From contig NZ_JARNTW010000001.1 in the NCBI RefSeq assembly GCF_029433105.1, forward strand, positions 62,001-126,000: a stretch of 64,000 nt of DNA, read 5' to 3'. Below the pieces are notes generated by a model, which did not search any database, was not told the origin of the DNA, and saw nothing but the letters and a program-made list of their open reading frames with translations. Origin of the DNA: Runella sp. MFBS21 (GTDB lineage: Bacteria > Bacteroidota > Bacteroidia > Cytophagales > Spirosomataceae). Positions 38-62,822 of this stretch are shown piece after piece. Position 1 is the first letter of the stretch, and each line of letters starts with the position of its first letter. A program made the translations under genes and the position numbers.

Positions 38-53
38 AACAAATAGCTTGCCA
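38..53 (-). promoter_or_regulatory. Sigma-54-like promoter (off-window operon)
   Basis: On the minus strand the sequence reads TGGCAAGCTATTTGTT. The -24 GG is at positions 2-3 and TTG at 12-14, the canonical sigma-54 spacing. It differs by one base from the promoter in front of PadR2 (17758-17773). It points out of the window, and no ATG occurs between it and base 1. Confidence 0.72.
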
Positions 54-106
54 GTACAATAAAGTGCTGATATTGTGTGGTTTGTCTCTTAAAAAAGTTA
101 CTAAAA

Positions 107-143
107 TGTCCGAAATCGTACATGTTTTGTACATTTTCGTACA
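107..143. promoter_or_regulatory. Paired dyad enhancer site
   Basis: Two 16-bp dyads are present, TGTCCGAAATCGTACA (107-122) and TGTACATTTTCGTACA (128-143), with centres 21 bp apart. The midpoint lies 85 bp upstream of the -12 G of the promoter at 38-53. The first dyad is identical, base for base, to the first dyad of the PadR2 operon (17827-17842). Confidence 0.7.
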
Positions 144-212
144 CTTTGTATAGATTTTCAAAAAGTGATTTATAACTTTTTTGAGATTATTTTTAAAAAA
201 ATTGGAAAATAA

Positions 213-224
213 TATTAGGGTAAA
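213..224 (+). promoter_or_regulatory. Candidate ECF promoter motif upstream of the sigma gene
   Basis: TATTAGGGTAAA occurs here on the plus strand and again at 8589-8600 on the minus strand upstream of FecR. In both cases a run of the type TTTTT-n-AAAAA-TT lies roughly 10-12 bases further upstream. I infer a promoter shared by the sigma gene and the operon it should control. No transcription data are available. Confidence 0.4.
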
Positions 225-358
225 TTGAAGGATTAGGGTCTTAGTAAATAAAGGATATTCTAATCAATCGCTCTATCAAACAACTCAACTTCTATAACGC
301 ACTTTCTCCCGATTTTCGGCAAGACCAAGTTGCATCCTCAGAAGATGTAAACGAAGGG

Positions 359-955
359 ATGGTGTATTTGGATGAAGAATTATTTATTAGAAAGGCATTT
401 GAGGAAGATCCCAAAAAGGGCTGGGAATTGTTGTTTCGAGAATACTATACCCCTTTGTGTAGTCATGCCATTCGATACGTATATTCTCGCGAAGCTGCGA
501 GAGATTTGGTAAGTGAAGCTTTTTATGTTTTTTGGCAAAAAGAAATTTACCTTCACATTACTACTTCTTATCGTGCTTATCTATACACGATGGTGCGTCA
601 TAGAGGGCTAAAATACCTGCAACGGGAGTTTAATCGTGATGCCAATGTAATAAGCATAGAGGCATTTGATAGCGAAGATGGGGTTTTTGTGCCTCATAGC
701 CTTACCCCCGAAGATATCCTCAGCTATGATGAGTTATCCCAAAAAGTAGAATCTGTTATTGACAATTTATCTCCCCAAAGTCGCAAAGTGTTTATGATGA
801 ATCGGTTTGAGGGTAAGCGATACCAAGCCATTGCGGAAGAACTTCAAATTACGCTCAAGACCGTGGAAGCTCATATGAGTAAGGCGTTGGCAGGGTTGCG
901 AAAAGCCCTCAAAAATGATGGCGCTTGGCTCGTTTTATATTTTTTCATTTCGTAA
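359..955 (+). CDS. ECF sigma factor of the SusCD locus
   Basis: RNA polymerase sigma-70 family, ECF type, 198 residues. The sigma-2 region lies around residues 20-60 (FREYYTPLCSHAIRYVYS, then EAFYVFWQK). A helix-turn-helix sigma-4 region lies near the C-terminus (LSPQSRKVFMMNRFEGKRY, then LQITLKTVEAHMSKA). The proteins convergent to it are FecR, a SusC with an STN domain, SusD and a sulfatase. In this family such a sigma factor is usually held by FecR and released when the STN-bearing receptor binds its ligand. The ATG at 359 follows a GAAGGG purine run. The gene ends inside the stem of a bidirectional terminator (947-989). Family is certain; the pairing with FecR is inferred from position and from the shared TATTAGGGTAAA motif. 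Confidence 0.93.
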   Translation: MVYLDEELFIRKAFEEDPKKGWELLFREYYTPLCSHAIRYVYSREAARDLVSEAFYVFWQKEIYLHITTSYRAYLYTMVRHRGLKYLQREFNRDANVISIEAFDSEDGVFVPHSLTPEDILSYDELSQKVESVIDNLSPQSRKVFMMNRFEGKRYQAIAEELQITLKTVEAHMSKALAGLRKALKNDGAWLVLYFFIS

Positions 956-989
956 AAAAAGCCCGTTCTGCGGGCTTTTTTTACGAAAT
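947..989. terminator. Bidirectional terminator between sigma factor and sulfatase
   Basis: A perfect inverted repeat with 19-base arms (947-965 and 971-989) has a TTCTG loop. Its GC core is GCCCG/CGGGC, flanked by seven A on one side and seven T on the other, so it works as an intrinsic terminator in both directions. The stop codon of the sigma gene (953-955) is inside the left arm, and the sulfatase stop (999) is 10 bases beyond the right arm. Confidence 0.95.
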
Positions 990-998
990 GGCGTTGGA

Positions 999-8776: not shown

Positions 8777-11431
8777 TTACTCTGCTTTCAGCGATTTTAC
8801 AGGATTGCCCAAAGCCGCTTTGATGGATTGAAAACTGACGGTGAAAAAGGCGATTAGAATCGACAATGCCGCCGCAATCACAAACGTCCAAACGCTGATG
8901 TCGATGCGGTATGGATAATTTTCGAGCCACTGTTTGATGGCATAATAAGCCACAGGAAAGGCAAAAACAAACGATAAACTGACCAGTTTCAAAAAATCAG
9001 CCGAAAGTAGCGTTGTGATACTTGCCACCGACGCGCCCAATACTTTACGAATACCAATTTCTTTGGTGCGCCGCTCGGCCGACAGCGTTGCCAAACCGAA
9101 AAGGCCAATGCACGAAATAAAAATCGTCAGAATCGCGCCAAAAAGCATGATTTGCTTCCATTTGGCTTCGGATTCGTAGCGCTTTTCGTTTTCTTCATCC
9201 ATAAACTTATACTCGTATGGATTCGTTGGAAAGAGTTTTTTGTAGGTTTTGGCAAGATGGCTTAGGCTCGCAGTTTCGCTTCCTTCTTTGATTTTGACGA
9301 ACACCTTTCCGTATTGATTTCTTGGCTTCATTGTAAACAATTGCGGCTTGATTTCTGAGGTAAGTGACTCAAAGTGAAAATCTTTCACTACGCCAACCAC
9401 TTTGTATTTTTCGCCTTCATTGTACCAAAAATCTACTACTTGCCCCAACGGGTTTGCCCAACCTGCTTTTTTCACAAAAGACTCATTGACCAATACCGAC
9501 GAAGTAGAATCAGAATTAAACTCCGCCGAAAAATTTCGCCCTTTGATAATCGGGATTTGTAACAGCGGAAAGTAGGTAGCATCTACGGTTTCATAGGCAA
9601 AATTAATTTCGGTTTGGCCGTTTACTTTGGCAATTGTGTACCAGTTTCCACCGTTTTTTGGGGCTACGTCCCGTATATTTTGATTTTTCAGTAGTTCATC
9701 TTTAAAGACCTTCGCTTCATTCCGACTCAAGCCCGACTTGCCCACCATTACGATACCTTTGTCATTATAACCTAAGTCTTTGTTGGTCAAATAGTTGAAC
9801 TGAGAATAAATAGTAAGCGTCGCAATGATTAAAAACGAAGCCAACGCAAACTGCAACACCACCAAGCCTTTTTGAAGGTAGTTTTTGCCCGAAAGGTTGA
9901 AGCGGCTGTAAAGCGTTTGAACAGGATTATAATTGGATAAAACCAACGCAGGATAAAAGCCCGCCAAAAGACCTGTGGCCAAAAACAAACCGATATAACC
10001 CGCCACTAATTTAGCATCAAACAAATACGAAAATGCCAATGCCTTGTTAGAAAGCTCATTGAAGGTAGGCAGCACCATTTGGACTAACAAAAGCGCAAAT
10101 CCAAAGGCCAAAAAGCACAGAATAAACGATTCGCCCAAAAATTGCATCACCAACTGCCCACGGCCGCCGCCAACGACCTTACGTACCCCAATTTCTTTGG
10201 CCCGTTTGAGCGAGCGTGCCACCGTCAGGTTCACGAAATTGATACACGCAATCAGTAAAATAAACATCGCAATACCCGAAAGGATGTACGAAAACATCGG
10301 GTTGCTGCCGTCCACCAAGCCGTTTTGGGCAGGCATATCTTTATTGAGATGCATATCAGTAAAAGGCTGCAACGTATAGATGACCTTATCCTTATCGCCG
10401 TATTTCTCGGCCATTTCCTTGATAGCGCCCTTGGCGTCGGCTTGATAAACGCGGTTCATGGTTGCTTCTACTTTTTTGAGATTGGCATTGGGTTGGAGCA
10501 CTACAAACGTATTTTGGAAAAAGCTGAACCAATTACTTTCATTGGCCATCTCAGCTTTGCTTACCACATAGGGAAAAAGAAAATCAAACTTAATCGAAGA
10601 ATTTTGAGGGCATTTTTTGGCAATTCCCGTCACGGTATAGGGTTCAAACTCCTTTGAATCTCCTTGCGAATTTCGCACTAAAAGAATTTTTCCTAAAACG
10701 TTGGTGGTTCCAAACTGTTTTTCGGCCATTTCTTCCGAAAGCACTACTGATTTTGGTTCTCTTAACGCCGTAGCAGGATTTCCGCTGACAAGTGGGAACG
10801 AAAACAGCGCAAAAAAACTGCTATCGGCATAAAATGATTCAAAACTTTTGACTTCTGTTCCCACTTTGATGTCACTTCGGTTGCTTTGGTAACGCACCGA
10901 CATTTTGATTTCGGGAACACCCGCCGCAAATTTAGGCCCTTGCAAGTACCCTGTATGGGTGTTGTACGACTGAAAAACCCCCGCAGGTGTAAACTGTTTG
11001 CTCGTAATGCGATAAATGTGAGGATTGTTGGCATGAAACCGGTCAAAACTCACCTCGTCTTTGGTGTAAAGCATGATTAACATAGCTGCTGCCAAGCCAA
11101 TACTCAAACCAATGACGTTGATGGATGAATACACCTTGTTGTGCGCCAAGGTTCGAAAAGCGATGGTAAAGTAATTGCGTAACATAGATGGCTGAATTAA
11201 GAAAGGGTTATGATAAGCTTGTTTTTTCTCGCGACGACGGACAAAAGGAGGCAATACCGATGCGACATTGAGCAAATACCTCCACGTTGCTTGGCGTTTG
11301 CCTGCGCGCTCGTACCAGTAAGCGTATAGTTCATCCAAATCACCTTCCACTTCTTCGAGGGTATCTTCGGGATGAAACCACCTCAAGACGCGGTTGGCCC
11401 ACTGAGGCGGATGAAGTTCGTTGGTTTTCAT
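8777..11431 (-). CDS. Prefix-domain ABC permease P1
   Basis: ABC3/MacB-FtsX-type permease, 884 residues. It is one of three here with a cytoplasmic prefix region (about 1-80: PPQWANRVLRWFHPEDTLEE, then GDLDELYAYWYERA). The membrane part begins at Met83 (MLRNYFTIAFRTL). Two MacB-like halves follow, each with one helix, a periplasmic domain and three more helices. The coupling segments that should dock on an ATPase are RAKEIGVRKVVGG and RRTKEIGIRKVLGAS. The tail is NPVKSLKAE. There is no ATP-binding motif. The start overlaps the PadR1 stop by 4 bp (ATGA), so the two are translationally coupled. The periplasmic regions resemble those of P5, which lacks the prefix. Substrate unknown. Confidence 0.93.
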   Translation of the reverse strand: MKTNELHPPQWANRVLRWFHPEDTLEEVEGDLDELYAYWYERAGKRQATWRYLLNVASVLPPFVRRREKKQAYHNPFLIQPSMLRNYFTIAFRTLAHNKVYSSINVIGLSIGLAAAMLIMLYTKDEVSFDRFHANNPHIYRITSKQFTPAGVFQSYNTHTGYLQGPKFAAGVPEIKMSVRYQSNRSDIKVGTEVKSFESFYADSSFFALFSFPLVSGNPATALREPKSVVLSEEMAEKQFGTTNVLGKILLVRNSQGDSKEFEPYTVTGIAKKCPQNSSIKFDFLFPYVVSKAEMANESNWFSFFQNTFVVLQPNANLKKVEATMNRVYQADAKGAIKEMAEKYGDKDKVIYTLQPFTDMHLNKDMPAQNGLVDGSNPMFSYILSGIAMFILLIACINFVNLTVARSLKRAKEIGVRKVVGGGRGQLVMQFLGESFILCFLAFGFALLLVQMVLPTFNELSNKALAFSYLFDAKLVAGYIGLFLATGLLAGFYPALVLSNYNPVQTLYSRFNLSGKNYLQKGLVVLQFALASFLIIATLTIYSQFNYLTNKDLGYNDKGIVMVGKSGLSRNEAKVFKDELLKNQNIRDVAPKNGGNWYTIAKVNGQTEINFAYETVDATYFPLLQIPIIKGRNFSAEFNSDSTSSVLVNESFVKKAGWANPLGQVVDFWYNEGEKYKVVGVVKDFHFESLTSEIKPQLFTMKPRNQYGKVFVKIKEGSETASLSHLAKTYKKLFPTNPYEYKFMDEENEKRYESEAKWKQIMLFGAILTIFISCIGLFGLATLSAERRTKEIGIRKVLGASVASITTLLSADFLKLVSLSFVFAFPVAYYAIKQWLENYPYRIDISVWTFVIAAALSILIAFFTVSFQSIKAALGNPVKSLKAE

Positions 11432-11766
11432 AGGCTGTTCAATTGCAATTTAGTCGGTGGTAAGAGTTGCCAAAGTTGTTGGCGCAGTTGTTGGATTTCC
11501 TGCAAAGCACGATTCCCCAGCGCCGTGACGTGAAAAAGACGTTTCCTCCTGCCACCGCGTTCGTTTGTTGCGCCACCGAGTTCGGAACCGACAAAGCCTT
11601 TTTCTTCCAACCGAATGAGCGTATTGTGCACCGTTCCAAAGGTCACGACCCGCCCCGTGTGTTCTTCCAACGCCTGACTGACCGTGACGCCATACGCCTC
11701 TCCATCGAGAATGGCAACCATCAGCAAAACTACTTCCTCAAATTCGCCTAAATAGGTTCGACGCAT
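11428..11766 (-). CDS. PadR-family regulator (PadR1)
   Basis: PadR-type winged-helix transcription factor, 112 residues. Visible motifs are YLGEFEEVVLLMVAIL, then AYGVTVSQALEEHTGR, the recognition part FGTVHNTLIRLEEKGFV and the basic wing GGRRKRLFHVT. PadR proteins are usually dimeric repressors that respond to small molecules or stress. It is the first gene of a two-gene operon with P1, overlapping it by 4 bp. PadR plus prefix-domain permease is a known pairing. The operon lies behind the sigma-54-like promoter at 11794-11809, so PadR1 may add a second control layer. Its operator was not identified. Confidence 0.92.
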   Translation of the reverse strand: MRRTYLGEFEEVVLLMVAILDGEAYGVTVSQALEEHTGRVVTFGTVHNTLIRLEEKGFVGSELGGATNERGGRRKRLFHVTALGNRALQEIQQLRQQLWQLLPPTKLQLNSL

Positions 11767-11793: not shown

Positions 11794-11809
11794 GTACAAA
11801 TCCGTGCCA
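11794..11809 (-). promoter_or_regulatory. Sigma-54-like promoter of PadR1-P1 (short spacer)
   Basis: Minus strand TGGCACGGATTTGTAC. The -24 half is a perfect TGGCACG, but TTG falls at positions 11-13, one base short of canonical, and no GC is at 14-15. It lies 28-43 bp upstream of the PadR1 ATG. The paired dyads lie 96 bp upstream of the -12 position, about one helical turn further than in the other units. Confidence 0.6.
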
Positions 11810-11873: not shown

Positions 11874-11910
11874 TGTCCGTTTACGGACAAACGTTGTCCT
11901 GAGTTGGACA
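11874..11910. promoter_or_regulatory. Paired dyad enhancer site (PadR1-P1)
   Basis: TGTCCGTTTACGGACA (11874-11889) has perfectly palindromic outer six bases on each side. TGTCCTGAGTTGGACA (11895-11910) follows. Centres are 21 bp apart. Same architecture as the site beside the response regulator gene. Confidence 0.75.
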
Positions 11911-14641: not shown

Positions 14642-14673
14642 ATAATGATTGTATTGTAAAATGGGATGGAATT

Positions 14674-14716
14674 GTAGAGACGTTGCATGCAACGTCTCCG
14701 CATGCAACGTCTCTAC
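14674..14716. repeat. Palindromic repeat, P3-P2 gap
   Basis: A full palindrome with arms GTAGAGACGTTG and CAACGTCTCCG starts at 14674. It is followed directly by a second right half, CATGCAACGTCTCTAC, ending at 14716. It lies 8 bp after the P3 stop and 33 bp before the P2 start, inside one operon. Confidence 0.9.
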
Positions 14717-14724
14717 AGGGGGAT

Positions 14725-17391: not shown

Positions 17392-17392
17392 A

Positions 17393-17731
17393 TTACATTC
17401 CCAAAACAGGTAACGTCTGAGGTGCAATAGCATCCCATAAACGATTTCGTTGGTCGCGCACTTCTTGGAGTGTTTTACTACCAATCACTGTCACCCGAAA
17501 GAGACGCTTGCGCCGCCCACCTCGTTCGGCGGTAGCCTCTCCCATAAATGACGACAGCATTCCTTTTTCTTCGAGGCGATGCAGGGCGGCATGAACCGCA
17601 CTAATGCTTACAGTTCGTCCCGTTTGGCGGTCGAGCTCGTCGGTAATAGCTACTCCATATGCCCCTTCTCCTAGGATTGCGACGGTCAAGAGTACAATTT
17701 CTTCAAATTCACCTAAGTACGTTCGTTTCAT
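17393..17731 (-). CDS. PadR-family regulator (PadR2)
   Basis: PadR-type winged-helix regulator, 112 residues from the ATG at 17731; a TTG codon immediately before it is a possible alternative. Motifs are YLGEFEEIVLLTVAIL, AYGVAITDELDRQTGR, then ISAVHAALHRLEEKGML and the wing GGRRKRLFRVT. Clearly a paralogue of PadR1. First gene of the operon with P3 and P2, under a sigma-54-like promoter at 17758-17773 that leaves a leader of only about 15 nt. Likely represses or tunes its own operon; operator not seen. Confidence 0.92.
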   Translation of the reverse strand: MKRTYLGEFEEIVLLTVAILGEGAYGVAITDELDRQTGRTVSISAVHAALHRLEEKGMLSSFMGEATAERGGRRKRLFRVTVIGSKTLQEVRDQRNRLWDAIAPQTLPVLGM

Positions 17732-17757
17732 CAAAAAAATATTATTAACTTTTGTAG

Positions 17758-17773
17758 AACAAATAGTTTGCCA
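17758..17773 (-). promoter_or_regulatory. Sigma-54-like promoter of PadR2-P3-P2
   Basis: Minus strand TGGCAAACTATTTGTT, with GG at 2-3 and TTG at 12-14 as in the sigma-54 consensus. It lies 27 bp upstream of the PadR2 ATG. The paired dyads sit 84.5 bp upstream of the -12 G. Confidence 0.75.
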
Positions 17774-17826: not shown

Positions 17827-17862
17827 TGTCCGAAATCGTACACTATTGTCCAGTAGTGTACA
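17827..17862. promoter_or_regulatory. Paired dyad enhancer site (PadR2-P3-P2)
   Basis: TGTCCGAAATCGTACA (17827-17842) and TGTCCAGTAGTGTACA (17847-17862), centres 20 bp apart. Half-sites are TGTCC on the left and GTACA on the right, the same mixed type as the left-edge site at 107-143. Confidence 0.7.
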
Positions 17863-20354: not shown

Positions 20355-20384
20355 GGCTTTATGGTAAAGAATAGAGAGAGAGAA

Positions 20385-22802: not shown

Positions 22803-22828
22803 AACGATATAATTTTTATGGCGATGAC

Positions 22829-22856: not shown

Positions 22857-22862
22857 AGGGAA

Positions 22863-37790: not shown

Positions 37791-37792
37791 AG

Positions 37793-40442: not shown

Positions 40443-40479
40443 TGTCCGAATCTGGACACTTTTTGTACGCGAGTGGACA
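40443..40479. promoter_or_regulatory. Paired dyad enhancer site (P12-P11-P10)
   Basis: TGTCCGAATCTGGACA (40443-40458) and TGTACGCGAGTGGACA (40464-40479), centres 21 bp apart. Lies 83 bp after the P13 stop. Confidence 0.74.
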
Positions 40480-43029: not shown

Positions 43030-43045
43030 GACAATACTTATGCCA
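43030..43045 (-). promoter_or_regulatory. Sigma-54-like promoter of P13
   Basis: Minus strand TGGCATAAGTATTGTC, GG at 2-3 and TTG at 12-14. It is 39 bp upstream of the P13 ATG. The dyad midpoint is 85.5 bp upstream of the -12 G. Confidence 0.73.
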
Positions 43046-43098: not shown

Positions 43099-43136
43099 TG
43101 TCCGTAAATGGACGATTTTTCGTTCACTTACGGACA
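43099..43136. promoter_or_regulatory. Paired dyad enhancer site (P13)
   Basis: TGTCCGTAAATGGACG (43099-43114) and CGTTCACTTACGGACA (43121-43136), centres 22 bp apart. The outer half-site of each pair is the better conserved. Ends 27 bp from the stop codon of the neighbouring hydrolase. Confidence 0.66.
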
Positions 43137-52807: not shown

Positions 52808-55279
52808 TTATTCGGTTTTTAATGATTTTACAGGATCTGATAATGCCGCTTTGACAGATTGAAAACCAACCGTCAAAAGGGCAATCAAAACGGCTAATCC
52901 TCCTGCAATCGCAAACATCCACCACGAAATACTGATGCGATAAGCAAAATCTTGTAGCCACGCCGACATCAAATACCAAGCAATAGGAGAAGCAATCACA
53001 ATCGCGATAATCACAAGCTTGAGGAAGTCTTTGGAAAGTAGTGCTGTGATGCCTAACACAGAAGCGCCCAAGACTTTGCGAATGCCAATTTCTTTGGTAC
53101 GCACTTCAGCCGAAAATGTGGCTAGGGCAAACAATCCCAAACAGCCAATGATAAGTGCCAAAGCCGTAAATACCCCTAGAATCAAACTGACTTTGTTTTC
53201 TGTATGATATAACGTCTTGAAAGAAGCATCCAAAAAGTCAAACTCAAACGGAACATTAGGGATACTCTTTTGCCATAAAGATTCGATTTTGGCGATGGCC
53301 GCTTTTTCGGTATGAGGTTGTAATTTGACCGCTAGGTACGAACCCCAAGTTTGGTAAGTTTTAGAAGATTTATGAAAAATCGCTACAGGCTCAATAGCTG
53401 CTCTAATCGACCCAATGTGAAAATCTTTCATAATTCCTACTACCTGAAAGCGTTGGTTTCGATTGCCAGGGTAGCGCATCCATTTACCTATGGGTTTTTG
53501 CCAGCCAATGGCTTTTACTGCTGCTTCGTTAAGAATAACTGAAGTAGAATCAAGGGTCGAATTATGAACAAAATTTCTACCTTCTAACAATTGAATTCCC
53601 AAAGTTGGTACAAAATACTCGTCGGTTAAAAAAGAAGAAATAGGTAAATTTTGAACAACAGGACTGGTTTGAGTACCTTGCTCTGGCTCATAAAAATCCC
53701 CAAAACTTCCTAAAGAAGGCAAGAAAGTCGAATGTGTTACTTGCTGCACTTCGGGTAGTTGGAGCAATTTTTGTCTGAAAGTTTCTCTGGTACTTTCAGA
53801 TTCTAGGTGTCGTACATTTTCTACAATCAAGATGTTTTTGCGCTGTAAACCAGCCGATTGGTTTTGTGCAAATTGTAATTGCCAATAAACGACCGTGGCG
53901 CATATCATCAAGGTGATAGAAACCGCAAACTGAAATACCACCAAACTACTACGGAGCCAGCCCTGTCCGCCTTTGGCCGAAGGAGTCGCAGCTTTGAAGA
54001 TATCTACAGGCTTAAATTTGGATAAATAAAGGGCAGGATAGATTCCTCCTAAAAGCGTACTTATGAAGGGTAATATCAGCATCAAACCAACGGTATTTGG
54101 TGAAAAAAGCTCCTTGAAAGTCCATACATGGTCGGTGAGTTGATTGAACAGCGGCAGAGCTAAAGATGCTAGAATCATAGTTAGGCCTAGTGCCATTAGA
54201 CTAAACAAGAATGCTTCTATTAAAAATTGACCAATGATGGTGCTACGTTGCGAGCCAATCGCCTTTCTTACTCCTACTTCGCGAGCTCTTTGTAAGGAGC
54301 GTGCGGTAGTAAGGTTGGTAAAATTGACGCAGGCAATGATTAGTATCAACACACTGATGATACTAAATAACTCAACTTGTTGGGCATCCCCCAAAGTATT
54401 GAGTCTGGAAGAGAGGCCCGGCTGATGCAGATGCAGAGACTTTAAAGGTAAAAGTTCGACTTTATAACGGTCTCCGCGCTTCATGTTTTCCTCAAAATTT
54501 TGGCCAATGCGTTGATAAGCCGCGGGTGCATGAGTACGTACCATGAGATCAAACCTATCGGTAAGCGCTGCCAATGCCTCAGGAGTAAGAGGCTTACGAA
54601 GGCGTACCCATGTATCCATTTGGAGCCATACCCAGCTCCACGAAAAACGCTCCACTACTTTGAAATTGGTCATTGAAACCAAAAAATCAAATTGAACAGA
54701 AGAGTTGGAAGGAATGTCTTTAACGATACCAGTAATGCTAAAAGGGCGGTCATTAATCGTCAAGGAGCGACCCATTGCATCCAAATTACCAAAGTATTTT
54801 TTTGCCATTTTTTCGGTCAACACCACACTATTAGGCTTATCCAGTACCAATGATACATCACCTTGCTGCATCGGAAAACCAAATAATTCGAGAAAGGCAG
54901 TATCAGCTGCCATAATCCCGTCTTCATTAAAAAGTAGGGGTTTTTGGTTTGGCAAGTCCCGTTGAATGACAGTGGTGCCTAGGTCAAACGTTCGGGCAAA
55001 CATCTCAATTTCAGGATAATCAATCGCCAACTGCGGCCCTAAAGGGGGCGGGGTATTGGTAGTACGACCTTCATCCTGCCCCATTTTGATGTTGAGTGCT
55101 ACTGCGTGTGTACGCTCAGCATATGGCAAAAATTCATCATAGCTTTTTTCATGTTGTACATAAAGCATAATCAACCAACAAGCCGTTAGGCCCATTGCCA
55201 AACCTGCTATATTGATAATACTGTACACCTTATTTCGAGTTAAGTTACGAAAGGCGATTTTGAGATAGTTTTGTACCAT
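52808..55279 (-). CDS. ABC permease P14
   Basis: ABC3/MacB-type permease, 823 residues, starting MVQNYLKIAFRNLTRNK. Coupling segments are QRAREVGVRKAIGS (R for the usual K) and VRTKEIGIRKVLGAS; the tail is DPVKSLKTE. Periplasmic signature DTAFLELFGFPMQQGDVSLVL. Last gene of the inferred operon HlyD-ATPase-P16-P15-P14, 72 bp or more after P15, with an unusual palindrome in the gap (55297-55333). Confidence 0.93.
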   Translation of the reverse strand: MVQNYLKIAFRNLTRNKVYSIINIAGLAMGLTACWLIMLYVQHEKSYDEFLPYAERTHAVALNIKMGQDEGRTTNTPPPLGPQLAIDYPEIEMFARTFDLGTTVIQRDLPNQKPLLFNEDGIMAADTAFLELFGFPMQQGDVSLVLDKPNSVVLTEKMAKKYFGNLDAMGRSLTINDRPFSITGIVKDIPSNSSVQFDFLVSMTNFKVVERFSWSWVWLQMDTWVRLRKPLTPEALAALTDRFDLMVRTHAPAAYQRIGQNFEENMKRGDRYKVELLPLKSLHLHQPGLSSRLNTLGDAQQVELFSIISVLILIIACVNFTNLTTARSLQRAREVGVRKAIGSQRSTIIGQFLIEAFLFSLMALGLTMILASLALPLFNQLTDHVWTFKELFSPNTVGLMLILPFISTLLGGIYPALYLSKFKPVDIFKAATPSAKGGQGWLRSSLVVFQFAVSITLMICATVVYWQLQFAQNQSAGLQRKNILIVENVRHLESESTRETFRQKLLQLPEVQQVTHSTFLPSLGSFGDFYEPEQGTQTSPVVQNLPISSFLTDEYFVPTLGIQLLEGRNFVHNSTLDSTSVILNEAAVKAIGWQKPIGKWMRYPGNRNQRFQVVGIMKDFHIGSIRAAIEPVAIFHKSSKTYQTWGSYLAVKLQPHTEKAAIAKIESLWQKSIPNVPFEFDFLDASFKTLYHTENKVSLILGVFTALALIIGCLGLFALATFSAEVRTKEIGIRKVLGASVLGITALLSKDFLKLVIIAIVIASPIAWYLMSAWLQDFAYRISISWWMFAIAGGLAVLIALLTVGFQSVKAALSDPVKSLKTE

Positions 55280-55296
55280 GATGATATAGATTATTT

Positions 55297-55333
55297 GTTG
55301 GAATGGTCATTGCATTGCAACGACCATTCCAAC
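55297..55333. repeat. Variant palindrome with exchanged arms, P15-P14 gap
   Basis: 37 bases: arms GTTGGAATGGTC and GACCATTCCAAC flank the core ATTGCATTGCAAC, with one A/C mismatch. The core TTGCATTGCAA is that of the GTAGAGACG family, but the outer arms are wholly different and still pair. It lies 18 bp after the P15 stop. Confidence 0.88.
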
Positions 55334-55351
55334 GGCCCTGCACGCATAAAT

Positions 55352-57763
55352 TTATTCCGATTTCAATGATTTTACGGGATTTACCAAAGCAGCTTTGGTC
55401 GCGTAATAAGCAATCGCTCCAATGGCCACAGTCAACACTACCCCAAAAAACAGAACCATCAAGCCTATGTTTAACCCTGCATAAAAAGTAAACATCTTAT
55501 TCATAAACATATTCTCAACCAATCCAATCGGTAAAGCGACCACTGCTGCAATAAACAATAGTTTCAAAAAACTCCACGACAAAATCCGAACCACTTCCCA
55601 TACGCTTGCTCCCATTACTTTCCGAATCCCGATTTCTTTGTAGCGTTTTTCGGTACTGTATGTCACCATGCCTAGCAATCCCATAAGGGCAATTACAAAA
55701 ATGATGACTGAGGCCAAGCCCATGATTTTCATATCTTCTGCCGGATAGTAGCGGTCATATAGTTCTTTTTCGTACCACGAATACCCTAGTTCTTTGTAAG
55801 GATGGTGTTTTTTCCAAATGGTCTTCATATCGGCCAAGAAAGCATCCTGATGCACTTGTGGGTTGACTTTCACCGACAGCATCGCAAATTGTGACGGATT
55901 GTACTGGAAAACCAACGGTTCTTTTTTGTATTGGTAATGGAAATGACAAAAATCTTTGACTATGCCCACAATTTGGGCAGGAAAACCATTGTTCAAAAAT
56001 ACCTGCTGCCCAATCGTTTCGCGAGGCGTGCCGAGGCGCAGACGCTGCACGGCGGTTTCGTTGAGTAAGATAAAATGCCCCGTCGAGTCGGTAGAAGAAA
56101 AGGGTAAATTTTTACCTGCTACCAACGTCAGATTCATGTTTTCGATGAAGTTTTTATCGACCGAATAATAGTATGTGGATGAATTTTCATCCTTTTCGTG
56201 CACTTTAATGGCTTGCTGCGAAGGCACACCTCCAAAGGGCATGGAGACCAAACCTATTTTTTCTACATCTTTATGCTTTTTGATGTCATCTATCAACACA
56301 CGATAATCTTGCCCTGCCAATGATAAATTAAAAATTCCTTTTCGGTTAAAATTATCGTTTTCGGTAGCCATATAACTAAACTGATTGTACATATGACCAA
56401 TCATAAACAAGAACCCCAACGTAGCTACAAACTGAATGACAATCAGGCTTTTTCGGAAGTTTACTTTTCCAAATGAAATCGGGCCTAACATACCTTTCAA
56501 GACCATAGCAGGCTGAAATTTTGACAAAATAACGGCTGGTAATGCCCCTGCCAAAATACCCAACACCAAAGTAAAAATCACAAACATTCCTCCGATTAGC
56601 GTTTTATTTTCGACCTCCCAGGTAAGCCATTGTACTTGAAGGTTTTGTTTCATAAAATACAACAACACTAACCCAATCCCAAAGGCAAAAAAGGCAATGA
56701 TAAGCGCTTCACAAATAAACTGAATCACCAACTGAACCCGAATTGCCCCCATCACTTTGCGTACACCTACTTCTTTGGAGCGACTCAACGACCGCGCCAA
56801 TGTCAGGTTGGTGTAATTGAAACCGGCCAACAACAAAATCATTAAAGGAATGAAAAAATTGAAATAAATATCTTCCATAGAGTCTACATAGGGATTGTAT
56901 CTCAAATCCTCGACACTTGGAGATATATCGGCCAAAGCCTGTTTCCGAAACAGATTGGTCTTTTTGGTAGCGGTTAGGTTGATATTCGTCTTTTTAGCCA
57001 CTCCTTGTAGTGCCAAATCTAAAGCATTTGAAGGCGCATTAGGCTGGACTCTCACAAAGGTGTGGGTTTCGTAGGTTCCCCATTCCGCGTTTTGTTTTAT
57101 CTCTGGCCGAAATTTTTCTAACGTCGCTATCGATACCATTACATCGCTTCGAAACTGCGTTTGCTTTTTAAAAGGCTTCAACACGCCCGTTACCGTCATG
57201 GGGCCGTAGGTAGGATGTACCAATGTTTGTCCAATAGGATTGGCATCATTAAAAAACCTTTTAGCGGCTTCAGTACTCAACATCAACGTATTGGGAGCTA
57301 TTGAAATGCTTCCTTTGGTGAGCGAAAACCCAAAAAGTTCGAAAAAACTGGGCTCTACGTACAAGGTGTTTACTTTCAACGACTTAAACGGAGTAGTTAG
57401 CTCCCAGCCAAAATCCCGCACCACTTTGGTGGCTTTTTCAATGCTAGGGTAGTTGTTTTTTAACTCATCTGCTAGTAAGTAGGGCGACGAAGCATACTTT
57501 GTCACTGTTCCTTCGCGGGTTATTTCGTTGGTCAAAACTCGATAAATGCGTTCGGGATGAGGGTGGAAATTGTCAAACTCAAAAGTGCTTTGAAGATGCA
57601 TCAAGGCCAATAGCGCAAAAGGAATAGCCAACCCCAAACCCATGATGTTGATGAAGGAGAAAAGCTTGTTTTTCCAGAGATTTCGAAACGCTATTTTGAT
57701 ATAATTGGCCGCCATGCCAGCCTCCCAACCTGCAATAGGGAAGAAATTATTTGATGTTTTCAT
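55352..57763 (-). CDS. ABC permease P15 (divergent)
   Basis: ABC3/MacB-type permease, 803 residues from the ATG at 57763. An internal ATG at 57715 (MAANYIKIAFRNLWKNK) lines up with the starts of all other permeases and has GGGAGG before it, so it may be the true start. The first 21 codons of the longest frame are repeat and are excluded. Coupling segments are SRSKEVGVRKVMGA and KRYKEIGIRKVMGAS, the latter unusual (Y for T). The tail is NPVKSLKSE. The periplasmic domains look the least like the rest (DISPSVEDLRYNPYVDSMED). Middle permease of the operon behind the ATPase. Confidence 0.9.
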   Translation of the reverse strand: MKTSNNFFPIAGWEAGMAANYIKIAFRNLWKNKLFSFINIMGLGLAIPFALLALMHLQSTFEFDNFHPHPERIYRVLTNEITREGTVTKYASSPYLLADELKNNYPSIEKATKVVRDFGWELTTPFKSLKVNTLYVEPSFFELFGFSLTKGSISIAPNTLMLSTEAAKRFFNDANPIGQTLVHPTYGPMTVTGVLKPFKKQTQFRSDVMVSIATLEKFRPEIKQNAEWGTYETHTFVRVQPNAPSNALDLALQGVAKKTNINLTATKKTNLFRKQALADISPSVEDLRYNPYVDSMEDIYFNFFIPLMILLLAGFNYTNLTLARSLSRSKEVGVRKVMGAIRVQLVIQFICEALIIAFFAFGIGLVLLYFMKQNLQVQWLTWEVENKTLIGGMFVIFTLVLGILAGALPAVILSKFQPAMVLKGMLGPISFGKVNFRKSLIVIQFVATLGFLFMIGHMYNQFSYMATENDNFNRKGIFNLSLAGQDYRVLIDDIKKHKDVEKIGLVSMPFGGVPSQQAIKVHEKDENSSTYYYSVDKNFIENMNLTLVAGKNLPFSSTDSTGHFILLNETAVQRLRLGTPRETIGQQVFLNNGFPAQIVGIVKDFCHFHYQYKKEPLVFQYNPSQFAMLSVKVNPQVHQDAFLADMKTIWKKHHPYKELGYSWYEKELYDRYYPAEDMKIMGLASVIIFVIALMGLLGMVTYSTEKRYKEIGIRKVMGASVWEVVRILSWSFLKLLFIAAVVALPIGLVENMFMNKMFTFYAGLNIGLMVLFFGVVLTVAIGAIAYYATKAALVNPVKSLKSE

Positions 57764-57789
57764 ATTTCTATTTTCCGTGTTGGGGTATT

Positions 57790-57835
57790 GTAGAGACGTT
57801 GCATGCAACGTCTCTACAGCATGCAACGTCTCTAC
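57790..57835. repeat. Palindromic repeat with extra half, P16-P15 gap
   Basis: A full 28-base copy (57790-57817) is followed by an additional right half GCATGCAACGTCTCTAC (57819-57835). It starts 12 bp after the P16 stop and ends before the P15 start, inside the operon. Confidence 0.95.
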
Positions 57836-57847
57836 GTGACAATGAAT

Positions 57848-60205
57848 TTATTCTGATTTCAACGATTTCACGGGATTCATCAATGCCGCCTTGATAGCCT
57901 GAAAACTGACCGTAAGAAGCGCAATCACCAACGCACTAACGGCGGCTATTAAAAAATACCACCATTCCATATCGATGCGATACGCGTATTTTTGAAGCCA
58001 ATCCTTTAGGAAATACCATGCAATAGGAAAGGCGATGAGCGTGGCAATGAACACTAATTTCAGAAAATCCAAAGAAAGCATTTGGACTAAGTTGCCTACG
58101 CTTGCGCCCAATACTTTTCGCACGCCGATTTCTTTGGTACGTTGTTCGGCAGTAAATGCGGCCAATCCAAATAGACCCAAACAGGAAATAAAAATGGCTA
58201 AGAAGGCAAAGTAGTTGGAGAGATTGCTGACTACATTTTCGCTTTTGTACTGTTTGGCAAGTTCTTGGTCAGCAAAGAAGTACTTGAATGGAAAATGAGG
58301 ATTAAACTGCTTAAAGATTTTTTCGGTGCTAGCGATAGCCGTTGGGATTTTTCCAGCCTCGGTACGAATTACTACTACGCCCCAATTTTCGTCTTTGGGC
58401 TGTAATCGCAAAATCAAAGGCTCGATGGCTACATGAAGTGTATTGTGATGAAAATCTTTCATCAAGCCTACAATCGTCCCTTTGCGCCCCCACATGGTCA
58501 TTTCTTTGCCAACGGGGTCTTTGTAGCCCATTTTGCGAGCGGTGGCTTCATTGATGATATAGTTGGTGGTATCCATACCAAATTGAGGGCCAAAATCACG
58601 TCCTTCAATCAGCTGTATGCCCATGGTTTGGATATAGTCATAAGAGATAGAATTGTTGGCAAAAAGGAGAAGCTGAGTAGTATCTTTGCCAGGCCAAGAC
58701 ACCCCTTGGGTAGAAGAACCCACTTCCAAAGGATTGGCCTGTGAAGAAGTGACAAGCTTGATGCCGGGTTGATTTTGAAGTGCTTGCTTAAACGAAGCGA
58801 AATTTTTCTGTAAATCTCCCTCCAATGGCATATAAAGCAGGTTTTCGCGGTCAAATCCTATATTTTTGGTCTGTAAAAAATTGATTTGGCGGTGTACGAT
58901 AATCATCCCCACAATCAGGATAATAGATAATGCAAACTGAAATACCACCAGCCCCTTGCGAAAATAAGTGGCACTAGGTTTGAATTTAAGTGCTCCTTTC
59001 AAGACTACGACAGGATTGAGCGACGACATAAACAAGGCTGGATAACTCCCCGCTACAAATCCCGTAAGAAGGGTTAGAATAACTAAAAAGAGCCAGAAAC
59101 TGCCTTCAGTAAAGTTGAGAGAAAGCTCTTTTTCGGTAAGCAGATTGAAAGTAGGTAACAACAAAAACACAATCAATAGGGCTATCACAAGAGACATAAA
59201 AGTGATAAGAATAGCTTCCCCGATAAACTGGCCAATCAAAACACTTTTCATGGCACCGATTACTTTTCTGACTCCTACTTCCTTGGCTCGCTTGACCGAA
59301 CGTGCCGTGGCTAAATTCATAAAATTGATGCACGCAATTGCCAAAATAATAATGGCAACAATGGCAAAAATACGAACGTAATCAATCCGACCGCCGTTTT
59401 GACGACCACTGTCCCAGTTAGAATATAAATATGACTCTTGGTATGACTGTAAAAATAATTCTACGTTGCTGTCTTTGTTTTTGGTTTTAATATACTTTTT
59501 GATTTTGGCATTTACTTTTTCTATAGAAGCACCTTTGACGAGCATTACGTAGCAGCGGGGGCCATTGTTGCCCCATTCTTTGGCCCATGCGTTGGTTTTA
59601 TGCCAACGGTCGTAGCTCATCAAAAAGTCAAATTTAAGGGAGGAGTTTTTGGGGATTTCGGCCAGAATACCCGTCACCATCATGTCATCTTTGCTATCAA
59701 TTCGGATGGTTTTGCCTAAGGCATCTTGATTGGGAAAATATTTATCCGCCAATTTTTTAGAAATCACAATGCCGTCGGGGCGTTTGAGGGCAGTCCGAGC
59801 ATCTCCTTTGCCTAGTTTAAAGCTAAACATTGTCAGAAAATCGCCTTGTACATAGCGGCCTTTTTCTTTATCGAAATTGTTGCCAACCGTAAAAAGCGGT
59901 TCTTCTTCCCATAGCATCTGACTTGCTTTTTCTATTTCAGGAATATCCTTTACGATATTTTCGGCCAAAATGCCAGGTGTAGAAGCATAAGTCTCAATTT
60001 TACCAGAATAAAACTGATTTTCCATCACCCGATAAAGACGAGAGCCATTTTCATGGAAAGAATCCATCGCTACTTCATCTTGTACCCATAGCATAATGAT
60101 AAGGCTACAAGCCATTCCGAGGGCTAGCCCTAAAATATTGATAGCCGAAAAAGCCTTGTTTTTTTGAAGATTACGAAGGGCTATCTTGAAGTAATTACTA
60201 AACAT
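57848..60205 (-). CDS. ABC permease P16
   Basis: ABC3/MacB-type permease, 785 residues, the shortest of the set, starting MFSNYFKIALRNLQKNK. Coupling segments are KRAKEVGVRKVIGA and QRTKEIGVRKVLGAS; the tail is NPVKSLKSE. The loop LYSNWDSGRQNGGRIDYVR groups it with P2, P6 and P8. It is the permease nearest to the ATPase gene, 205 bp downstream of it and separated by a strong hairpin (60364-60402). No separate sigma-54-like promoter was found in that gap, so it is likely read from the HlyD promoter. Confidence 0.93.
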   Translation of the reverse strand: MFSNYFKIALRNLQKNKAFSAINILGLALGMACSLIIMLWVQDEVAMDSFHENGSRLYRVMENQFYSGKIETYASTPGILAENIVKDIPEIEKASQMLWEEEPLFTVGNNFDKEKGRYVQGDFLTMFSFKLGKGDARTALKRPDGIVISKKLADKYFPNQDALGKTIRIDSKDDMMVTGILAEIPKNSSLKFDFLMSYDRWHKTNAWAKEWGNNGPRCYVMLVKGASIEKVNAKIKKYIKTKNKDSNVELFLQSYQESYLYSNWDSGRQNGGRIDYVRIFAIVAIIILAIACINFMNLATARSVKRAKEVGVRKVIGAMKSVLIGQFIGEAILITFMSLVIALLIVFLLLPTFNLLTEKELSLNFTEGSFWLFLVILTLLTGFVAGSYPALFMSSLNPVVVLKGALKFKPSATYFRKGLVVFQFALSIILIVGMIIVHRQINFLQTKNIGFDRENLLYMPLEGDLQKNFASFKQALQNQPGIKLVTSSQANPLEVGSSTQGVSWPGKDTTQLLLFANNSISYDYIQTMGIQLIEGRDFGPQFGMDTTNYIINEATARKMGYKDPVGKEMTMWGRKGTIVGLMKDFHHNTLHVAIEPLILRLQPKDENWGVVVIRTEAGKIPTAIASTEKIFKQFNPHFPFKYFFADQELAKQYKSENVVSNLSNYFAFLAIFISCLGLFGLAAFTAEQRTKEIGVRKVLGASVGNLVQMLSLDFLKLVFIATLIAFPIAWYFLKDWLQKYAYRIDMEWWYFLIAAVSALVIALLTVSFQAIKAALMNPVKSLKSE

Positions 60206-60410: not shown

Positions 60411-61088
60411 TTAAACCCGCATTTTTTCGGTTACTACTTTTCCGTCAAATAAATTGACAATACGGTGGGCAAAGCCAGCATCGTAAGGTGAGTGAGTCAC
60501 CATGATGATGCTTGTGCCTTCGTCGTTGAGTTGAGAGAGGAGTTTCATCACTTCTTCGCCATTAGCAGAGTCCAAATTTCCGGTAGGCTCATCGGCCAAG
60601 ATTAATTTGGGTTTTGCTACTACTGCCCGCGCGATTGCGGTCCGTTGTTGCTGTCCACCAGAGAGTTGTTGAGGAAAGTGATTGCGACGGTGCATGATAT
60701 TCATACGGGTCAAAACAGTCTCTACCATATCCTTGCGCTCATTGGCAGGCACTTTGAGATAAAGCAAAGGAAGCTCTACGTTTTCGTACACCGTTAGCTC
60801 GTCGATAAGGTTAAAACTTTGGAATACGAATCCAATATTGCCTTTACGAAGCTGAGCGCGTTGGCGTTCGGAGAGTTTGGCTACTTCGGTGCCATGAAAA
60901 TCGTAGCTGCCATCAGAAGGATTGTCAAGCAATCCTAGGATATTGAGAAGGGTGGATTTTCCACATCCAGATGGCCCCATGATAGCTACAAATTCGCCAT
61001 CTTTTACTTCCAAATCTATTCCGTTCAGGGCTGTTGTTTCTACTTCTTCGGTAGTGAAGATTTTTTGGAGATTAGTTGTTTTTATCAT
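60411..61088 (-). CDS. ABC transporter ATPase (MacB/LolD type)
   Basis: Stand-alone nucleotide-binding subunit, 225 residues, full length for the LolD/MacB class. Walker A GPSGCGKS at 38-45, Q-loop Gln90, signature LSGGQ at 142-146, Walker B LILADE at 162-167 and switch His199 (MVTHS) are all present. The sequence [20 protein letters not shown] is typical for this class. It should dimerise under the cytoplasmic coupling segments of a permease. It is the only ATPase gene in a window with sixteen permeases that lack one. It lies 99 bp after the HlyD gene and upstream of P16. Confidence 0.95.
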
Positions 61089-61187
61089 CGTAAAGTCAAA
61101 ATTATGGATTCAAGAATTGTGAGGATGAAAATGGCTACTCGATAAGAGACTCAATATAAAACCGAGGGTTTCTTTCTTAGGGGTTGA

Positions 61188-62498
61188 TTAATTTAATTCC
61201 AATACTTCTTTATCTCCAAAATTGGCGTACGAACTTGTAATCACTTTTTCACCATTTTGAAGGCCCTCCAATACTTCATAATACTCGGGGTTTTTGCGGC
61301 CTAAAGTGATATTTCTTTTGACGGCCCGCTTGCCGCTGTTGTCTAAGACATAGACCCAGTTGCCACCTGTATCGGAGAAAAACCCACCTACTGGCAATAA
61401 AAGAGCCTTTTCTGCTTTACCTAGCCAAAGACGGATGGGGGTAGATTGTCCACGTTTGATTCCTTCAGCAGCGCCGGTGGCAGGGAAAATCATATCCACT
61501 TCAAAGCGACCATTGCGTACTTCAGGGTATATTCTAGAAATGGTGAGGGGGTTTTCTTTTCCGTTAAAATCAAAAGTACCTTTCAGACCTACAAAAATCC
61601 GTGAGATATAGTGTTCATCGATAGCAACCCGCATTTTGAAGCCGTTGAGGTCGTCGATTTGTCCGATGTTTTGTCCTTGGCTGATATTAGAACCCACTTC
61701 TACATCAATCGAAGACAGTACCCCGCTTACGGGTGCTTTTACCACTAAGTTGTCGAGGGTTTGTCGCCACAGCTCAACGTTTTTCTGAGTACGTGAGAGC
61801 GTACCTTCTAGCTGTGCGATTTGCATCTTGGCGTTTTCTTCCTGATAGTTTTGTGATTCGGTTTCGATTTCTTTTTGTTTTACCAAAAGCTCATAATCAC
61901 GTTTTGATTTCAAAAAATCAGACTCAGGCAATACTTTATCTTTGAAGAGTTTCTGATTGCGTTCATAAATATCCTTCGCTTGGTCGATTCTGAACTCTAG
62001 ATCGTTGAGAGTACGGCGAATATTGAAGCGATTGACTTTCAGTTGTTGGCGGGTATTTTGGAGGTCGTTTACCAAGCGGCTTGCTTCGGTTTCTGACTGC
62101 AAGAAGCTCAACTTTAAATTTTGATTCTCAAGTTTGAGCAATATCTGTCCTTGATTGACCATACTACCACCTTCTACAAGTTTTTCTTTAACGTACCCTC
62201 CTACAATCGCATCTAAGCGGATGATTTTGAGGGGTTGTACCACCCCTGTTACCACAATAAACTCATCAAACGAACCTCTTGAGACTGAGGAAACCGTGAG
62301 TTTTTCGGCTTCTACGTTAAGTTTAGAGCGTTTATCTGCAAAAAATACTTGATAAACGACAAAAGCCACGAGGGCTGCCCCGCCCGCAAACATGAGCATG
62401 CGTTGGGTATTCCAAAATTTCTTTTTGCGTACGCGGTCCATTGAGCCTTGAGTATGGTTGCCCGTGGTTTGGTTGATGAGCGGATTCTTAACTTCCAT
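61188..62498 (-). CDS. HlyD/MacA-type membrane-fusion protein
   Basis: Periplasmic adaptor of a tripartite efflux system, 436 residues. One N-terminal membrane helix (about 33-53). First lipoyl half (about 90-125, VGGYVKEKLVEGGSMVNQGQ). Long coiled-coil hairpin (about 128-250). Second lipoyl half (about 250-285, VVKAPVSGVLSSIDVEVG). Beta-barrel and membrane-proximal domains follow, with GFFSDTGGNWVYVL near the end. It should link a permease to a TolC-like channel, which is absent from this window. First gene of the operon with the ATPase, about 135 nt downstream of a sigma-54-like promoter at 62647-62662. The ATG at 62498 fits the short cytoplasmic tail. Confidence 0.94.
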   Translation of the reverse strand: MEVKNPLINQTTGNHTQGSMDRVRKKKFWNTQRMLMFAGGAALVAFVVYQVFFADKRSKLNVEAEKLTVSSVSRGSFDEFIVVTGVVQPLKIIRLDAIVGGYVKEKLVEGGSMVNQGQILLKLENQNLKLSFLQSETEASRLVNDLQNTRQQLKVNRFNIRRTLNDLEFRIDQAKDIYERNQKLFKDKVLPESDFLKSKRDYELLVKQKEIETESQNYQEENAKMQIAQLEGTLSRTQKNVELWRQTLDNLVVKAPVSGVLSSIDVEVGSNISQGQNIGQIDDLNGFKMRVAIDEHYISRIFVGLKGTFDFNGKENPLTISRIYPEVRNGRFEVDMIFPATGAAEGIKRGQSTPIRLWLGKAEKALLLPVGGFFSDTGGNWVYVLDNSGKRAVKRNITLGRKNPEYYEVLEGLQNGEKVITSSYANFGDKEVLELN

Positions 62499-62646
62499 GT
62501 GAAATAAATTTAAGCAAAATAATTTTTAGAAAAATGGTAAACAAAATGGCTGTTAATAACAACGCCTTGTCTGGCTCACGCTTCTCTTAACCTAAACTAA
62601 TTTTCAAATCGTGTTTTTATGGCTGTATGAGTTCATTTACAATGCT

Positions 62647-62662
62647 GCCAATACCCGTGCCA
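62647..62662 (-). promoter_or_regulatory. Sigma-54-like promoter of HlyD-ATPase operon
   Basis: Minus strand TGGCACGGGTATTGGC: perfect TGGCACG -24 half, TTG at 12-14. The dyad midpoint lies 86 bp upstream of the -12 G. Leader to the HlyD ATG about 135 nt. Confidence 0.78.
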
Positions 62663-62716
62663 GAAATATAAGTACCTGTATATGAGCGATTTGTTTTTGG
62701 AGAATGATTCGCAAAT

Positions 62717-62753
62717 TGTCCGAAAACGGACAACCGTTGTACGGCTTTGGACA
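62717..62753. promoter_or_regulatory. Paired dyad enhancer site shared by divergent promoters
   Basis: TGTCCGAAAACGGACA (62717-62732) is a perfect dyad. TGTACGGCTTTGGACA (62738-62753) is imperfect. Centres are 21 bp apart. The midpoint is 86 bp from the leftward and 85 bp from the rightward -12 G. It is the likely binding site of the response regulator encoded next to it. Confidence 0.8.
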
Positions 62754-62806
62754 AGAATAAAAATAGCCTTATTTCTTAATGGTTGATAATGAGGGATTTC
62801 GTATTT

Positions 62807-62822
62807 TGGCATCCTAATTGGG
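62807..62822 (+). promoter_or_regulatory. Sigma-54-like promoter of the response regulator
   Basis: Plus strand TGGCATCCTAATTGGG, GG at 2-3 and TTG at 12-14. It is the only sigma-54-like promoter on the plus strand in the window and uses the same dyads as the HlyD promoter, 85 bp away. Points to self-activation of the regulator gene. Confidence 0.7.

Follow-up and report, generated by a model that had tools for sequence, protein, structure and literature searches.

Introduction

In Bacteroidia, the COG0577 class of ABC permeases is enriched under predicted sigma-54 control, which was called first evidence of such a link in 2025 (PMC12316311), and the mapped sigma-54 regulon of Flavobacterium carries envelope-stress functions (PMC9723704). 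Other close systems are DVU2106/orp of Desulfovibrio vulgaris, built around an enhancer-binding protein (EBP) and -24/-12 promoters (PMC3897727, PMC4641369), and the BceRS-BceAB and VirRS-VirAB-AnrAB modules of Firmicutes, where permeases go together with a kinase lacking an extracellular sensor domain (PMC7828314). Here, we analyse a window of 64,000 nucleotides (C1:62001-126000) from the genome of Runella sp. MFBS21 (7.88 Mb, 72 contigs), in which seven pairs of short dyads stand at narrowly set distances from sigma-54-like promoters, in front of operons for FtsX/MacB permeases or for an adaptor and an ABC ATPase. We read these units as an autoregulated sigma-54 regulon run, through the paired dyads, by the NtrC-type response regulator encoded at 62895, and give this reading a probability of about 0.85. 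To our knowledge, no role or signal has been assigned to the large PadR-linked FtsX/MacB permease families of Bacteroidota.

Dyad pairs in the window and beyond

A first-pass annotation of this DNA had placed dyad pairs at 107, 11874, 17827, 32772, 40443, 43099 and 62717, and had argued that their recurrence was not due to chance. All seven are found at these positions. The argument was tested with a strict pattern, TGTMC-N6-GKACR-N3..7-NGTNC-N6-GKACA, the same pattern read backwards serving as the control. In the whole genome, the strict pattern gives 10 forward and 8 reverse matches, that is, 18 strand matches at 11 places (the seven of the window plus C1:20473, C1:27484, C12:375443 and C22:11304), and the control gives none. 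These places are not scattered: 11 of 11 precede MacB/FtsX permease or adaptor-ATPase operons, even though at C22:11304 two 100-amino-acid (aa) genes come first and the permease begins 746 base pairs (bp) past the -24. Each window unit likewise precedes a permease or adaptor-ATPase operon, as had been proposed, the unseen gene past the left edge being a 792-aa permease.

A second pattern, which requires a promoter and a single perfect dyad, brings in C22:6243 (permeases), C1:549534 (a paralogous system) and C5:131761 (three small secreted proteins). Two of these secreted proteins were scanned, and one of the two passes the Pfam cut-off of DUF3244 while the other falls short of it. A further match of this pattern, at C1:407269, seems to be due to chance. 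When 129 operon leaders in the stretches covered were scanned with a matrix, pairs above score 15 stood before 14 of the 27 operons that contain ABC-type, PadR or regulator genes. Such a pair also stood before 2 of the 102 other operons, both divergent from an already counted unit; as the matrix was trained on units including most of those scanned, this is a check of completeness rather than independent proof.

Across the family, 86 of 150 genomes hold the strict pair, with the backward control at 0 of 150. The pattern is not a class-wide code, since it occurs in only 2 of 245 class genomes outside the genus (control 0 in all 247 class genomes); of the two places, one (L083) lies before a permease and has its promoter at 82 bp, and the other (L082) is without a promoter. 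A chance origin of the pairs is ruled out by the empty control in the own, family and class genomes.

Distance between enhancer and promoter

In the window, the -12 G stands 85, 95, 84.5, 86, 84, 85.5 and 86 bp from the pair midpoint in the seven units, taken in order. The first-pass values (85, 96, 84.5, 86, 85, 85.5 and 86) hold in five cases and are off by 1 bp at 11874 and 40443. The same two units depart from the minus-strand TGGCA/TGGTA...TTG that had been claimed for every pair: five of seven fit TGG[CT]A-N6-TTG, whereas these two have the TTG one base nearer the -24, with a G still present at the canonical -12 place at 40443 and not at 11874.

The narrow geometry extends far beyond the window. 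We gathered 120 units from strict places listed in the own, family and class genomes, a part of all places that spans nine genera of the family and, beyond it, two class genomes, and scored sigma-54-like sites by the number of matching letters out of 10 consensus letters, with the region at 150-800 bp as background. Between 60 and 130 bp, 33 sites reach a score of at least 9 against 0.2 expected (2 at 150-800 bp), 84 reach at least 8 against 2.6, and 118 reach at least 7 against 17; at least one promoter lies at 73-109 bp in 107 of the 120 units. The 84 sites with a score of at least 8 fall into two main classes, 54 at 84-87 bp and 26 at 94-98 bp, with one each at 75, 82, 107 and 123 bp and none at 88-93 bp. 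At this score, 83 sites are located at 70-110 bp, and 82 of them deviate by no more than 2.1 bp from a ladder of 10.6-bp steps counted from 85.5, which was picked after the data were seen. The picture holds when clustering at 60% identity reduces the 114 promoters to 65 representatives, one for each cluster: 34 are found at 84-87 bp, 26 at 94-98 bp, five elsewhere (75 twice, 82, 103 and 107) and none at 88-93 bp. Because the peaks are separated by about 10.5-11 bp, with a few sites at 75 and 107 bp, promoter distances apparently step by helical turns. The spacers between the two dyads of a pair, searched with a pattern that admitted 4-8 bp only, measure 4-7 bp and mostly 5 (58 of 98), so the dyad centres lie about two turns apart.

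The two classes also differ in their genes and in the DNA between enhancer and promoter. PadR-led operons favour 96 bp (20 of 26 clusters) and permease-led operons 85 bp (16 of 18; Fisher p 3.5e-5). A relaxed element, WATCAR-N4-TTR on one strand, which we take to be the consensus of integration host factor (IHF), appears in 15 of the 114 spacers against a mean of 0.5 after mononucleotide shuffling, near -20 or -31 from the -24 T, between enhancer and -24. These numbers do not support a uniform IHF-site rule, and hairpins are found instead in the PadR-led 96-bp clusters, where a terminator-like hairpin (z below -2) occurs in 9 of 20 and an IHF-like element in 1 of 20; in the permease-led 85-bp clusters, the counts are 3 of 19 and 8 of 19, respectively. 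The hairpin of PadR-led units carries a T-run (for instance in L084, L123, L164 and L180) and could insulate the promoter from read-through.

The units of the window

The first six pairs have minus-strand promoters only. The pair at 107..143, the putative enhancer for the permease left of the window, has its -24/-12 TGGCAAGCTATTTG at 40..53, 85 bp from the pair midpoint. At 11874..11910, the pair faces TGGCACGGATTTG (11797..11809), which is one base short (95 bp), and a PadR gene with a permease (8777..11766, minus strand). The pair at 17827..17862, with TGGCAAACTATTTG at 17760..17773 (84.5 bp), precedes a PadR gene and two permeases (12005..17734, minus strand). That at 32772..32808 is the unit for a run of six permeases (17958..32713, minus strand), with TGGTATGGCATTTG at 32704..32717 (86 bp) and a predicted minus-strand IHF-like element, AATCAATACATTA, at 32724..32736 between enhancer and promoter. 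For three permeases (32914..40234, minus strand), the pair lies at 40443..40479 and TGGCATAGCTTTGG at 40376..40389 (84-85 bp), and for one permease (40562..42991, minus strand) the pair lies at 43099..43136 and TGGCATAAGTATTG at 43032..43045 (85.5 bp).

The seventh pair (62717..62753) is common to two divergent promoters. On the minus strand, TGGCACGGGTATTG (62649..62662) lies 86 bp away and precedes the adaptor-ATPase operon, with a HlyD/MacA-like periplasmic adaptor (61188..62498), a MacB/LolD-type ABC ATPase (60411..61088) and, after the ATPase, three duplicated FtsX/MacB permeases (52808..60205). On the plus strand, TGGCATCCTAATTG (62807..62820) lies 85 bp away and precedes the regulator-kinase operon; this promoter was absent from the first-pass annotation and raises the number to eight promoters for seven pairs. 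When eight Runella sequences, among them that of the window, are aligned with one from Emticicia, both dyads appear as conserved islands between diverging flanks, and the first palindrome varies symmetrically in its centre (AAAA becoming TTTT). All of these sequences retain the adaptor-side promoter, with C for the first T of the -24 in two of the eight Runella, and the regulator-side promoter is retained in the eight Runella and lost in Emticicia. Since conserved promoters flank the pair on both sides, the regulator very likely activates its own operon, as judged from these alignments.

The regulator, its kinase and the predicted binding of the dyads

The regulator (62895..64000, plus strand) is an NtrC-type response regulator of 456 aa that extends past the window, where the kinase gene overlaps its end. 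It is 98% identical to that of Runella zeae and has a receiver-AAA+-helix-turn-helix architecture, with Pfam matches to Response_reg and Sigma54_activat and a C-terminal helix-turn-helix, taken as Fis-type, seen by eye in the alignment. The kinase has two membrane segments by hydropathy (8-26 and 31-49), joined by a loop of about four residues, and no periplasmic sensor; two segments pass the hydropathy cut in 15 of 21 kinases examined. RpoN itself is present twice (two Sigma54_DBD matches, at C12:133438 and C1:327302), the second gene lying directly upstream of another enhancer-binding regulator.

The first-pass annotation took this regulator as the obvious activator, and two lines of evidence now stand behind that view. 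The first is the position of the dyad. We searched up to 350 bp upstream of the regulator gene for a single TGTNC-N6-GNACA in 44 of 79 loci (L218-L232 and L234-L262), leaving aside L233, which begins inside the gene, and L263-L296, which are partial or weak matches. The dyad was found in 25 of the 44 loci, with 0.30 expected from the rest of the loci and none in the reversed control. Loci whose record names fall outside the family (L234-L262) contribute 17 of 29, several of them being close relatives (Cyclobacterium, Belliella) and not independent. Single related dyads thus recur upstream of the regulator in other families, where in many loci the regulator remains divergent from adaptor, ATPase or permease genes; by position arithmetic, a pair in L259 has its promoter about 96 bp away, and one in L242 has its promoter about 75 bp away.

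The second line is co-occurrence. With an ortholog called at a best E under 1e-135 in the 150 family genomes, the strict pair is present in 82 of 113 genomes with the regulator and in 4 of 37 without it (Fisher p 3.7e-11, uncorrected for phylogeny). Regulator and pair have been lost together in one genome of the window's own genus (G129) and in three others (G074, G118 and G128, of g28). Two of the four exceptions have a homolog at hand: in G089, the regulator gene is split over the two ends of its contig (62% identity), and in G023 a 49% homolog lies on the contig of the pair, with an adaptor gene near the pair. The other two, G067 and G025, are 71% and 66% complete genomes and stay unexplained. 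Of the three pairs of G089, one precedes permeases with a promoter (L310), one a permease with no promoter at the pattern used (L308) and one neither (L312), and one pair of G067 (L307) has its promoter facing the contig end.

Because the dyad lies upstream of its gene so much more often than expected, the 62895 regulator is predicted to be the likely binder of the dyads. The alternative that survives best is that they are real sigma-54 enhancers bound by another EBP, or shared with a 44% identical paralog (C1:541322-542731). The genome does encode six proteins with strong Sigma54_activat matches, the 62895 regulator among them, and cross-binding is conceivable, given that the paralog's own unit contains a single, related dyad, TGTTCGATTTCGAACA. 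However, the dyad follows the 62895-type gene from locus to locus and its presence from genome to genome, eight Runella sequences have the pair in the interval that separates the regulator operon from the adaptor operon, and the paralog is accompanied by a different, single dyad. We therefore regard binding by another EBP as improbable.

Targets of the proposed regulon

Downstream of the units, Pfam detects MacB_PCD and FtsX domains in five permeases tested, and also recognises a PadR protein (PF03551), an HlyD-type adaptor and an ABC ATPase. Over the 114 promoters, the first recognised gene is a permease in 43, PadR in 32, an adaptor in 11, an ATPase in 6 and the regulator in 2. The 20 promoters without a recognised first gene comprise four with a permease 746-790 bp on, four that are second sides of units already facing a target, four before DUF5916-type, two before DUF4097-type and five before small secreted DUF3244-like genes (one example of each type was scanned and the others were judged by likeness), and one before a gene for a 220-aa secreted protein. 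Altogether, the target set looks like an envelope regulon.

These targets bear on two weaker alternatives. The dyads might be operators of another type of protein, such as a PadR-type repressor, with the sigma-54 promoters activated otherwise, and PadR is indeed the first gene after 32 of the 114 promoters; yet the pair also precedes the PadR-less permease-first and adaptor-first operons, and a narrow set of distances to the -24/-12 is what an enhancer needs and an operator does not, so that a PadR operator is disfavoured and this explanation is highly improbable. That the units are passive remnants of permease-operon duplication, with an inherited and unselected geometry, is suggested by the large paralogous permease family and the many related units among the 114 promoters, but is next to negligible given that dyads and promoters are conserved while flanks diverge and the palindrome centre changes symmetrically, that 60 of the 65 cluster representatives hold the two distances, and that unrelated targets (DUF5916, DUF4097 and DUF3244-like genes) bear the same dyad-pair unit.

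Counted from open frames over 780 aa, the genome has 39 duplicated permeases, 28 of them in operons with a unit, a number that takes the three permeases after the ATPase, across a 206-bp gap, as belonging to one operon. At C1:53190, a further permease is associated with a pair whose promoter is weak. A profile made from the ATPase at 60411..61088 revealed no second ATPase of this kind in C1:1-146000. Three tested permeases score 295.7, 322.4 and 326.3 bits against the ADOP model TIGR03434 (curated cut-off 622.3), and two tested PadR proteins fall below the curated cut-off of TIGR03433, while perm_prefix_2 (NF038404) is above its cut-off in two PadR-linked permeases tested.

A palindromic repeat, GAGACGTTGCATGCAACGTCTC, is found in 31 half copies between 3860 and 57832 of the window, mostly at permease gene junctions. 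Genome-wide, 28 copies with at most one mismatch lie on C1, C22, C4 and other contigs, 15 of them in C1:6893-119814 and one in the C22 permease cluster; this repeat may have helped to duplicate the permeases. Proteins of about 100 aa beginning MAHIAIP (L018:11456-12062, L089 and L120) stand in tandem in two regulon loci; the one that was scanned has no Pfam or NCBIfam match.

Observations at odds with a uniform regulon

Several observations weigh against the proposed regulon or its completeness. Concerning the sites, 13 of the 120 units have no sigma-54-like site at score 7 or more, and in 3 of the 11 strict units of this genome the canonical -12 place has no G: two of them (C1:20473 and C1:27484) combine a good -24 with TTTT at the -12, and one is a base short. 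At the loosest score used, 7, there is a site at 89 bp, and 101, 103 and 123 bp are occupied as well. The periodicity test does not single out 10.5 bp (R is 0.77 at 9.5, 0.82 at 10.5, 0.83 at 11 and 0.80 at 12), because two main peaks cannot fix a period. Concerning the targets, four permeases (C1:49809) have a pair with no promoter at the right place, four others (C1:29958, two at C1:59080, and C22:15609) have no unit, and the two on C23 lie on a contig with no strict pair.

Concerning the regulator, 19 of the 44 loci show no dyad within 350 bp upstream, and 31 of the 113 regulator-bearing genomes are without the strict pair. Its activation loop reads GAYTDA, and that of its relatives GAFTDA or GAYTDA, instead of GAFTGA; among the other five strong EBPs of the genome, the paralog has GAFTDA and four have GAFTGA or GSFTGA. 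Variants with GAFTDA and GAYTDA are held able to activate (PMC4641369), DVU2106 itself carrying GAFTDA (PMC3897727, PMC4641369), and the effect of such a change was left open for one GAFTDA protein (PMC10714721). The EBP filter of the Bacteroidia survey kept GAFTGA proteins only (PMC12316311), and would therefore drop the 62895 regulator.

Neighbouring loci

The paralog belongs to a locus (C1:539296-549620, L297) where a response regulator-kinase pair follows genes for an adaptor, an outer-membrane-factor-like protein, an ATPase and two short permeases. This locus carries the single dyad TGTTCGATTTCGAACA and a -24/-12 site, and is probably a second sigma-54 module, for a complete MacAB-TolC-like pump. 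Within the window, 44718-52556 holds two similar modules back to back, each with an ECF-sigma-like gene, a HEAT-repeat protein and two secreted proteins; one HEAT-repeat protein has a zinc finger and is anti-sigma-like, and one secreted protein matches DUF4097. At 359-8548, an ECF-like sigma factor recognised by eye on the plus strand and FecR, TonB-dependent receptor, SusD-like and sulfatase genes on the minus strand form an ordinary uptake locus without a dyad-pair unit of its own.

Proposed mechanism

The sites, their geometry, their targets, their conservation and their linkage to the regulator can be read from the DNA, and make it very likely that this is a real, conserved and autoregulated sigma-54 regulon. 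From them we infer binding, activation, sigma-54 dependence and looping, in the following way. The kinase beside the regulator would phosphorylate it, and an oligomer of the regulator would bind the paired TGTCCG-N4-CGGACA dyads, whose centres lie about 21 bp (two helical turns) apart. Through a short loop, in many units bent by an IHF/HU-like protein, the regulator would contact RNA polymerase-sigma-54 at a few helical phases (about 75, 85, 96 or 107 bp), and would turn on the PadR-permease, permease and adaptor-ATPase operons. The bidirectional pair at 62717 would also drive the regulator's own operon, giving a positive feedback switch. More speculatively, the kinase might read the state of the permeases, as BceS reads BceAB, and the single ATPase might power many permeases. 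We propose sensing through a permease because a kinase with two membrane segments and a loop of about four residues resembles the intramembrane-sensing kinases, and by this analogy it is a possible, though tentative, arrangement.

The proposed regulon assigns a regulator and a DNA code to the permease families. The genes it would control together with them (adaptor, ATPase, DUF4097, DUF5916 and small secreted proteins) point to a response to envelope or peptide stress, which can now be tested. Many distances at about 85 or 96 bp, few at 75 or 107 and no good ones between also provide evidence, by comparison across units, that helical phase has to be preserved in a short enhancer loop.

Comparison with known systems

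The first-pass annotation knew of no described regulon in which one EBP controls a series of such permease operons. Judged by titles and abstracts, the open-licence PMC papers listed by our searches include none with this regulator, dyad or spacing rule, in keeping with that claim; it holds only in part, as sigma-54 control of COG0577 permeases had already been predicted for Bacteroidia (PMC12316311). That prediction shares the permease class and the sigma factor, and differs in giving, in the parts of the paper available to us, a COG enrichment with no regulator, enhancer or geometry. DVU2106/orp shares the EBP, the -24/-12 promoters, their divergent arrangement and the IHF sites between enhancer and promoter (PMC3897727, PMC4641369). 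Unlike that system, the one described here relies on a two-component regulator and paired dyads, spans about a dozen operons within one genome, has ABC permeases as targets, and combines autoregulation from one shared pair with two main distance classes about one helical turn apart.

The Bce and Vir modules share the kinase without an extracellular sensor domain and the permeases with a large extracytoplasmic domain, and in VirRS-VirAB-AnrAB the regulator also controls a further transporter, AnrAB (PMC7828314). Here, in contrast, the host is Gram-negative, an NtrC-type regulator acts with sigma-54, and the duplicated fused permeases mostly have no ATPase gene of their own; sensing by permeases is carried over by analogy. 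Bce-type modules use a response regulator of the OmpR family, whereas the Runella regulator is an NtrC-type AAA+ protein; its kinase does have the two transmembrane segments and very short loop of the intramembrane-sensing type. ADOP permeases and their PadR genes (TIGR03434, TIGR03433) share the duplicated permease and, in some operons, the PadR gene alongside, and differ in that the tested permeases and PadR proteins fall below the curated cut-offs of these models.

It is conceivable, if rather doubtful as a whole, that the regulon is a Gram-negative sigma-54 counterpart of the Bce/Vir modules, in which a sensor-less kinase would read FtsX/MacB-type permeases, an autoregulated EBP would raise about 28 of the 39 duplicated permeases, most of them without their own ATPase gene and perhaps sharing one, and the promoters of the family would amount to a natural experiment in which the enhancer-promoter distance changed by whole helical turns only. 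The machinery belongs to a known type, while the regulon, the sensor arrangement and the stepped spacing look new.

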